Assembly: GCA_030019415.1 (NCBI GenBank)
Contig: JASEEX010000024.1
Span: 1-32,820 of the forward strand
Length of the DNA: 32,820 bases
Source of the DNA: Thermodesulfovibrionales bacterium
Lineage (GTDB): Bacteria; Nitrospirota; Thermodesulfovibrionia; Thermodesulfovibrionales; SM23-35
Direction of reading: 5' to 3'
Shown here: positions 13,965 to 15,143 of the stretch, one piece after another
Position numbering within the stretch: position 1 is the first letter of the stretch
Layout: each line of letters begins with the position of its first letter
The notes under the pieces: generated by a model
Told to the model about the DNA's origin: nothing
Seen by the model: the letters and a program-made list of their open reading frames with translations, nothing else
The model's database searches: none
Made by a program: the position numbers and the translations under genes

Positions 13965-14873
13965 TCATTCATAGAGAATTGGTTTTCCCAGACCTTTTGG
14001 TGGATGCTCTTCCTTCCACAGAAGTATCTCCCTTATTCTCGAGTGTAACTTAAATTTCCTCCTGCAATCCTCAAGGACCGCACCAACAACCTCTATCTTC
14101 TTAAGATCATATTCTCCAAGCTTACCCATATGGCAATACAAAAGATAGCCAACATCCTGTGAATTGATTCCCATTATTTCAAGGCCTACTCTATCGGCGG
14201 CCAAAGGATCAAGGCTGGCAACCGCAACTCCACATTCTACCATATCTCCAATCACTGGCCCCTCGCCCTCCATGCCATAAAATCCGTCTATAGAGGCCAA
14301 ATCCGGCCTTCTCTTTTTAGCCAAAAGATAGAGGTTATGATTTATTTCCTTTATTCCCTGGTGAACCCTTCCTTTATCCCTTCTGAGGACTGCCCCCATA
14401 GCCAGATTTTTCAATGAAAGGGTGGCAATGACTGTATCATGGGTTTTCAGTTTTGCTGCTGAGATAATGAAGAAGGAAGGGTCAAGGATGGTTTTGCTAA
14501 ATCTAATTTTTTCTTGATTTGAGATCAAGACCTCTTCAAAGTTATCTCTGTTCAGATCCAGGAATTCTATTTTGAATCCATATTCCTTTTTAAGCTCGAA
14601 ATAGCCAAAATTCTTAAAACCTTCGAAGGTGTTCCCACAGGCTCCTTCAGCAATAATTATTTTTCCCTGATAAAACCTGGCTAAAAAATCCAGAATCCCC
14701 CTCACTTGATCAACCTCAGTTGCTGCCTTTTGAATGTTAACCGAGACAAAATTTGGCTTTATTAAGATAACCCTTTCTCCAATCTTCTCCTTTATCTCTT
14801 TTTCCAATAACTTAAGGGATTCAAAAATATTCTTTCTCCTCGAGTCACCCTTTATTAGTGTTACTTTGCTCAT
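13965..14873 (-). CDS. DUF362 domain-containing protein
   Basis: ILIKPNFVSVNIQKAATEVDQVRGILDFL, IIIAEGACGNTFEGFKNFGY, KLKTHDTVIATLSLKNLAMGAV, typical of DUF362. Confidence 0.85.
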   Translation of the reverse strand: MSKVTLIKGDSRRKNIFESLKLLEKEIKEKIGERVILIKPNFVSVNIQKAATEVDQVRGILDFLARFYQGKIIIAEGACGNTFEGFKNFGYFELKKEYGFKIEFLDLNRDNFEEVLISNQEKIRFSKTILDPSFFIISAAKLKTHDTVIATLSLKNLAMGAVLRRDKGRVHQGIKEINHNLYLLAKKRRPDLASIDGFYGMEGEGPVIGDMVECGVAVASLDPLAADRVGLEIMGINSQDVGYLLYCHMGKLGEYDLKKIEVVGAVLEDCRRKFKLHSRIREILLWKEEHPPKGLGKPILYE

Positions 14874-14908
14874 GGATATAATTTTAATTTAAATTTTACC
14901 CGACTTCT

Positions 14909-14936
14909 TTGATAAACTCTCTCCCATGGGTATAAT
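14909..14936 (+). promoter_or_regulatory. Candidate promoter TTGATA - 16 bp - TATAAT, reading toward hflK
   Basis: -35 TTGATA at 14909-14914 and consensus -10 TATAAT at 14931-14936, the latter inside the left arm of a 14-bp inverted repeat. Confidence 0.5.
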
Positions 14937-15018
14937 TCTCCCTTCTCCTCTACGAGTCGTAGACCCTACAGGTCATAGACCTTTTAGGGTTGGTTTAAAC
15001 CATTGAGAATTATACCCA
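14927..15018. repeat. Perfect 14-bp inverted repeat TGGGTATAATTCTC/GAGAATTATACCCA enclosing three hairpins
   Basis: Arms at 14927-14940 and 15005-15018. Internal: TCTACGA-G-TCGTAGA (14949-14963); ACCCTA-c-AGGTC-ATA-GACCT-tt-TAGGGT (14963-14990); TGGTTTAAACCA (14991-15002). Confidence 0.9.
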
Positions 15019-15056
15019 AAATCATATTTGCAGAAAATATGTCACATTATCTACAA

Positions 15057-15116
15057 CAGGCTTTTTTACCCGTTAGAAAAATTTTCTAAGGGGGTAAGCC
15101 TGAGCTTTCTAACGGG
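15057..15116 (+). promoter_or_regulatory. Candidate leader with mutually exclusive hairpins upstream of hflK
   Basis: Hairpin A: CAGGC(tttt)TTACCC g TTAGAAAA a TTTTCTAA gg GGGTAA GCCTG (15057-15102). Hairpin B: CCCGTTAGAAA (15069-15079) with TTTCTAACGGG (15106-15116). They share 15069-15079, just upstream of RBS GGAGGAGG. Confidence 0.6.
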
Positions 15117-15143
15117 GTTTATTAAAGGAGGAGGCGTAAGAAG

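Follow-up and report, generated by a model that had tools for sequence, protein, structure and literature searches.

What accounts for the dense group of palindromes at positions 14927-15018 of the window, the whole 32,820-nucleotide stretch of Thermodesulfovibrionales DNA analysed here? A 14-bp inverted repeat encloses three consecutive hairpins there, and an earlier note, made from the letters alone, suggested a structured RNA, a cruciform protein-binding site or a miniature mobile element. We conclude, with a probability of about 0.77, that the cluster is a two-layer composite of mobile DNA: the left-end relic of an IS256/Mutator insertion sequence with a leader that probably folded back, in which two 16-bp palindromes have been inserted at a C/C step (the slash marks the point of insertion).

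The geometry is as the earlier note described it. The two 14-bp arms are 100% complementary and separated by 64 nt, the TCTACGA/TCGTAGA hairpin lies at 14949-14963, and the TGGTTTAAACCA hairpin and all other named repeats are found where they had been placed (Table 1). Folded as RNA, the segment 14900-15045 reaches -43.6 kcal/mol, compared with -25.5 +/- 3.3 for 200 dinucleotide shuffles (z -5.6), none of which folds equally well. ARAGORN returned no match, in agreement with the statement that the cluster is not a tRNA, and covariance models retrieved no Rfam family for it. The earlier note would have taken a lack of homologs, covariation and transcription as a sign of chance or decayed DNA. 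Homologs do exist: DNA searches recovered segments of the region from two further loci of the same genome (C91, C111) and, among 40 relatives, from 14 genomes of the family or order. Next to no credence is left for a chance group of palindromes in decayed DNA. The region is indeed a relic, as that explanation would have it, but its fold score and the existence of homologs with conserved arms speak against chance.

The outer layer: the left end of an IS256-family element

Read on the minus strand, the homologs all show the same succession: GATAGTGTAACATCAATTCTGCAAATATGA at the terminus, next GGGTATAATTCTC, a loop and AAAGGAGAATTATACCC, and finally an ATG with a protein that begins M..SLSKKxxKVIE. 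An intact sibling in the same genome (C111; L007:2428-3645) encodes a protein of 405 aa that matches PF00872 (Transposase_mut, E 2.2e-74), has its ATG directly behind the right arm and is bounded by 29-nt TIRs that are 79% complementary; there is no obvious target duplication in its flanks. Elements of the IS256/Mutator family typically have TIRs of about 20-40 bp and duplicate 8-9 bp of target. The PF00872 transposase and the TIRs of the sibling, together with the left TIR present in the window, place the element in this family. Full-length related transposases within the order share 66-75% identity, and no relative of the transposase was found among viral contigs. These alignments identify the 14-bp repeat and TGGTTTAAACCA as the 5' leader of a minus-strand gene for an IS256-family transposase. 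We know of no description of a 13-14 bp leader repeat in the IS256/Mutator family.

The window copy aligns to the left end of a sibling that encodes PF00872 and carries TIRs of about 29 nt, but differs from it in having neither the transposase body nor the right end. Its transposase reading frame stops after about 12 codons (MGESLSKKSGKI, then a stop) and the remainder is gone, so that the relic measures only about 155 bp (about 14897-15052). In itself such a relic is ordinary.

Table 1. Features of the palindrome cluster and its surroundings (window positions)
Feature	Position	Strand	Basis
Left-end relic of an IS256-family insertion sequence (the end with the transposase start)	14897..15052	-	alignment with 7 other copies
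Left TIR of the insertion sequence, GATAATGTGACATATTTTCTGCAAATATGATT	15020..15052	-	alignment with the TIRs of other copies
Left arm of the 14-bp repeat	15005..15018	-	exact repeat; invariant in 12 copies
TATAAT within the left arm, probable -10 box of the transposase promoter	15014-15009	-	sequence
TGGTTTAAACCA, part of the leader loop; AATGGTTTAAAC in most copies	14991..15002	-	aligned leaders
16-bp palindrome unit 2, diverged, CCTACAGGTCATAGAC	14965..14980	+	tandem with unit 1, family pattern
16-bp palindrome unit 1, TCTACGAGTCGTAGAC	14949..14964	+	absent from all 12 other IS leaders
Shine-Dalgarno GGGAG, overlapped by the right arm	14942-14938	-	sequence; 12 aligned leaders
Right arm of the 14-bp repeat	14927..14940	-	sequence; 12 aligned leaders
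Transposase ATG, abutted or overlapped by the right arm	14927-14925	-	sequence; 12 aligned leaders
Truncated transposase start, MGESLSKKSGKI and stop	14889..14927	-	matches M(K/R)xSLSKKS/AxKVIE of intact copies
Promoter-like TTGATA-16-TATAAT, outward toward hflK	14909..14936	+	11/12 matches; about 1 expected by chance

These limits change the reading of the cluster. The 92 bp had been taken as one unit, for which target duplications were to be sought at 14925/15020; there are none to find, since the real boundaries are those of the relic. A self-contained miniature element with the 14-bp repeat at its ends was rejected because the TIR and the transposase start extend outside both arms. What survives of the three suggestions is that the region is mobile-element DNA and that it encodes a structured 5' leader; instead of a miniature element standing on its own, two nested things are found.

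The relic is flanked on one side by a DUF362 gene (minus strand, start at 14873) and on the other by two SPFH/Band 7 genes consistent with hflK and hflC. The outward promoter-like site on the plus strand takes its TATAAT from the right arm and is not evidence of function. The DUF362 gene itself (13965-14873) has one clear relative in the family (in G006, 54% identity), the others compared (L187-L196) being mostly distant, with partial matches at 24-43% identity. Its start (CATGGATATAATT, 14871-14883) resembles that of the transposase (CATGGGTATAATT, 14925-14937) at 12 of 13 bases.

A leader that may fold back on the transposase start

In the 12 leaders compared, pairing of the outer 13-bp helix is 98.7% complete and 12 of its 13 base pairs never change. 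The covariation check proposed in the earlier note gave a signal in the inner hairpin alone, a small one present in the intact IS leaders: 3 of its pairs are changed on both sides (n=12), a modest support that comes from few independent events. Since the outer helix is invariant, covariation does not prove that it pairs as RNA. The full leader has a predicted energy of -24.8 kcal/mol (z -6.7 relative to shuffles), with the Shine-Dalgarno and start region paired, while the predicted fold of a transcript beginning past the left arm reaches only -9.2 kcal/mol. The arms are presumably conserved because they coincide with the promoter -10 box, on one side, and with the Shine-Dalgarno sequence and start codon, on the other. 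No convincing -35 box was seen in the alignment upstream of the inward TATAAT.

These features suggest the following model. The transposase leader would form a long hairpin whose 5' arm contains the -10 box and whose 3' arm contains the ribosome-binding site by the start codon. A transcript from the element's own promoter would start just after the 5' arm, lack it and be translatable, whereas a transcript reading through from outside would contain both arms, and its start would be hidden by fold-back inhibition. In IS10 and IS50, the transposase is protected from outside transcription by just such fold-back of read-through transcripts. By analogy, we infer that the original job of the leader hairpin was likely to hide the transposase start on read-through transcripts. 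A structured transposase leader that includes the ribosome-binding site has been described in ISPpu9 (PMC8450116), and translation control of the IS10 transposase (PMC4265352) offers a further comparison. The likeness to IS10, IS50 and ISPpu9 is that, in the transposase mRNA, the leader structure takes in both the start and the ribosome-binding site. The differences from IS10 and IS50 are that the IS family is another one, that the -10 box here lies within a pairing arm and that the structure is a prediction from sequence.

The main rival to fold-back control is an operator: the arms could be a protein-binding site, serving transposase autoregulation or a host repressor, rather than an RNA switch. 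Both arms are near-invariant in the 12 copies and show no compensatory change, and such invariance would suit an operator as much as a -10 box and a Shine-Dalgarno sequence. Yet the arms coincide with the -10 box and with the Shine-Dalgarno sequence and start, the inner hairpin varies with compensation, and the full leader folds far better than its shuffles; we regard an operator as unlikely, though well worth keeping in mind. Fold-back control, the reading that we prefer, would extend this regulation of transposase translation to an element of the IS256 family.

The inner layer: a 16-bp palindrome inserted at CC

Nested in the leader loop is a 32-bp insert (14949-14980) that only the window copy carries, the other 12 leaders being without it. 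Where a sibling leader (L022) reads CTCC directly followed by CTTTTAGGG, the window reads CTCC, TCTACGAGTCGTAGAC, CCTACAGGTCATAGAC and then CTTTTAGGG. The first two hairpins of the cluster can be read as two tandem 16-bp units, 81% identical over their 16 nt, lodged between the two C residues of the loop. The ACCCTA...TAGGGT hairpin listed in the earlier note turns out to have formed by chance where the second unit meets the host loop. Two successive insertions at the same C/C step would give this arrangement. Each insertion would leave a new C/C at its right junction (GAC/C), making a next insertion possible, which may explain why tandem copies occur in the window and in L011.

Other genomes provide many more sites of the 16-bp palindrome (16-mer). 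Its left neighbour is a C at 104 of 109 sites and its right neighbour a C at 107 of 109. Removal of the unit gives, among the loci compared, an ungapped match across the junction at 50 sites, about 35 of them convincing by eye and the others short or weak. The clearest case comes from a single genome, G001, where a different repeat is present both with the unit (107 bp) and without it (91 bp); the flanks of these two copies are near-identical, and the sole gap between them is exactly 16 bp. Judged from these comparisons, the 16-mer inserts as exactly 16 bp, with CC as its target.

The 16-mer also prefers hairpin-forming sites. Of 146 sites, 34% have a hairpin score of at least 8, as compared with 13% of 1107 control CC steps taken from the non-ORF DNA of the same loci (Mann-Whitney p 6e-7, an optimistic value, the sites being phylogenetically non-independent and several host repeats recurring). 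Copies often lie inside the hairpins of other repeats, REP-like ones included, and one lies at the 3' edge of a TPP riboswitch. tRNA genes are also among the targets: the 16-mer splits the CCA end of a tRNA-Ser gene (C/CA; L228:1412-1520), lies in the T arm of a tRNA-Ala-like sequence (L204) and, in several genomes of one genus, occupies the D loop of a tRNA-Leu-like 5' half.

One could argue that the 16-mer never moved, being an operator-type motif that arose by point mutation or was kept by selection at many promoters. It is palindromic and often intergenic, as such a motif would be. This explanation is nevertheless very unlikely given the exact 16-bp presence or absence between near-identical flanks, the copies within REP-like repeats, in tRNA genes and at the riboswitch edge, and the occurrence of both orientations relative to genes.

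Some loci deserve separate mention. At L054:1300-1540 (minus strand), a tRNA-Leu(tag) gene stands between what appear to be the two halves, 5' and 3', of a second tRNA (acceptor GCGAGAG/CTCTCGC), whose 5' half has a 16-bp insert in its D loop; L056, L076 and L100 have a similar layout. In L126:345-790, an array of 16-mers occupies the D loop of a tRNA-Ile-like 5' half; next come a small ORF of the GIY-YIG type and, behind it, an intact tRNA-Ala. In the window, a CCCGTTAGAAA...TTTCTAACGGG palindrome (15066-15118) lies directly upstream of hflK; it looks like another dispersed repeat, because in L243 and L255 copies of the 16-mer have been inserted into the same CCCCGTTAGAA/TTCTAACGGGG motif.

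Of 233 genomes of the class, 26 contain the exact 16-mer, with 79 occurrences in all (reversed control, 1), and 49 of 232 contain a degenerate pattern, with 227 occurrences (reversed control, 11); copy counts vary with the pattern used, and the genomes are draft assemblies, mostly metagenomic. The exact unit-1 sequence, TCTACGAGTCGTAGAC, accounts for 107 of 151 occurrences examined. Among GTDB species genomes, a 17-mer was found in 104 stretches, where a simple 4^17 estimate gives about 31 random matches for 264 Gb, and the matches are concentrated in the Nitrospirota (Thermodesulfovibrionia where the class is named) and in the Ignavibacteria/Bacteroidota. Viral contigs gave one match to the repeat. 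Variants partly keep the symmetry, with CTATG/CATAG or CTGCG/CGCAG in place of CTACG/CGTAG. The dominant variant differs between high-copy genomes (CTCTATGAGTCGTAGACC in G187, CTCTACGAGTCGTAGACC in G001), which suggests separate amplifications in different genomes. On these genome comparisons, the 16-bp palindrome is a dispersed mobile repeat with hundreds of sites in at least two bacterial phyla. This mobile palindrome, unlike the ordinary relic that hosts it, is the surprising part of the locus; no description of its sequence or of similar elements in these phyla was found in the open-access literature searched. Complex arrays in which 11-bp tandem units (GAGTCGTAGAC) lie beside the 16-mer (L121:2528 and 4013, L134:250-660, L136:2180-2210) hint at the origin of longer forms.

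What could move 16 bp, and what it resembles

Clustering of the ORFs within 1.5 kb of the copies disclosed no donor, enzyme or recurring neighbour gene: the clusters consist only of translations of host repeats, ORFs read through tRNA-Leu and one complex locus. A GIY-YIG nuclease found beside two array loci was discarded as a candidate, only four examined loci carrying one and two of these being the same place.

Another possibility is that the 16-mer belongs with the REP-like elements and that a REP-associated tyrosine transposase (RAYT/Y1) moves it. Y1 transposase genes were present in all 10 copy-bearing genomes tested and missing from 2 of 5 genomes without copies, and the 16-mer is a dispersed palindrome that contains GTAG. 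The association is not specific, however. Two copy-free genomes (G005, G010) have three Y1 matches each, and no copy with up to 2 mismatches lies near 20 Y1 loci, a subset of the Y1 genes of these genomes. Moreover, REP elements are hairpins of 20-40 bp with an unpaired GTAG or CGTC tag (PMC3733652), while the 16-mer falls short of this range and has its GTAG inside the stem. Mobilization by a RAYT is, in our opinion, doubtful.

The preference of one palindrome for the inside of another leads us to infer that the mover is most likely an enzyme acting on hairpin or single-stranded DNA. We incline, with only slightly better than even confidence, to the view that the 16-bp palindrome is the whole mobile unit, inserted exactly at CC with a preference for hairpin DNA, by a mechanism unlike any known transposition system; its hosts would be Nitrospirota and Ignavibacteria/Bacteroidota and, within their genomes, REP-like repeats, IS leaders, tRNA genes and a riboswitch edge. 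The ends of a mobile DNA normally have to be long enough to be gripped by a transposase. A 16-bp unit that spreads would imply a new insertion chemistry, or a known enzyme able to move a bare hairpin. The repeat is also a clean test bed, since its copy number, exact C/C target and empty sites can all be read from sequence.

Compared with known small palindromes, the 16-mer resembles REPs in being dispersed, mostly outside genes, sometimes tandem, and represented by genome-specific dominant types. It departs from them, besides its size and the lack of an unpaired tag, in that no transposase flanked by copies was found at the 20 Y1 loci and in its precise insertion at CC, often within other palindromes. 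Nor does it behave as a MITE, which shares its ends with an autonomous element and duplicates its target: no neighbour gene recurs beside the 16-mer, and at most 1 bp (C) could be duplicated. Its closest parallels are the GC clusters of yeast mitochondria, GC-rich palindromes with AG or TAG targets, of which GC42 is 42 nt long and duplicates an AG target (PMC4478555), and the tiny palindromic hairpin elements of sponge mitochondria (PMC2800124). These are organellar and longer, and are likened to the 16-mer by description only. Like it, they are tiny non-coding palindromes with precise insertion; they too can form tandem or merged copies and occur within genes for structural RNAs. If the 16-bp palindrome is indeed a complete mobile unit, it would be a bacterial counterpart of the mitochondrial GC clusters and among the smallest mobile DNAs.
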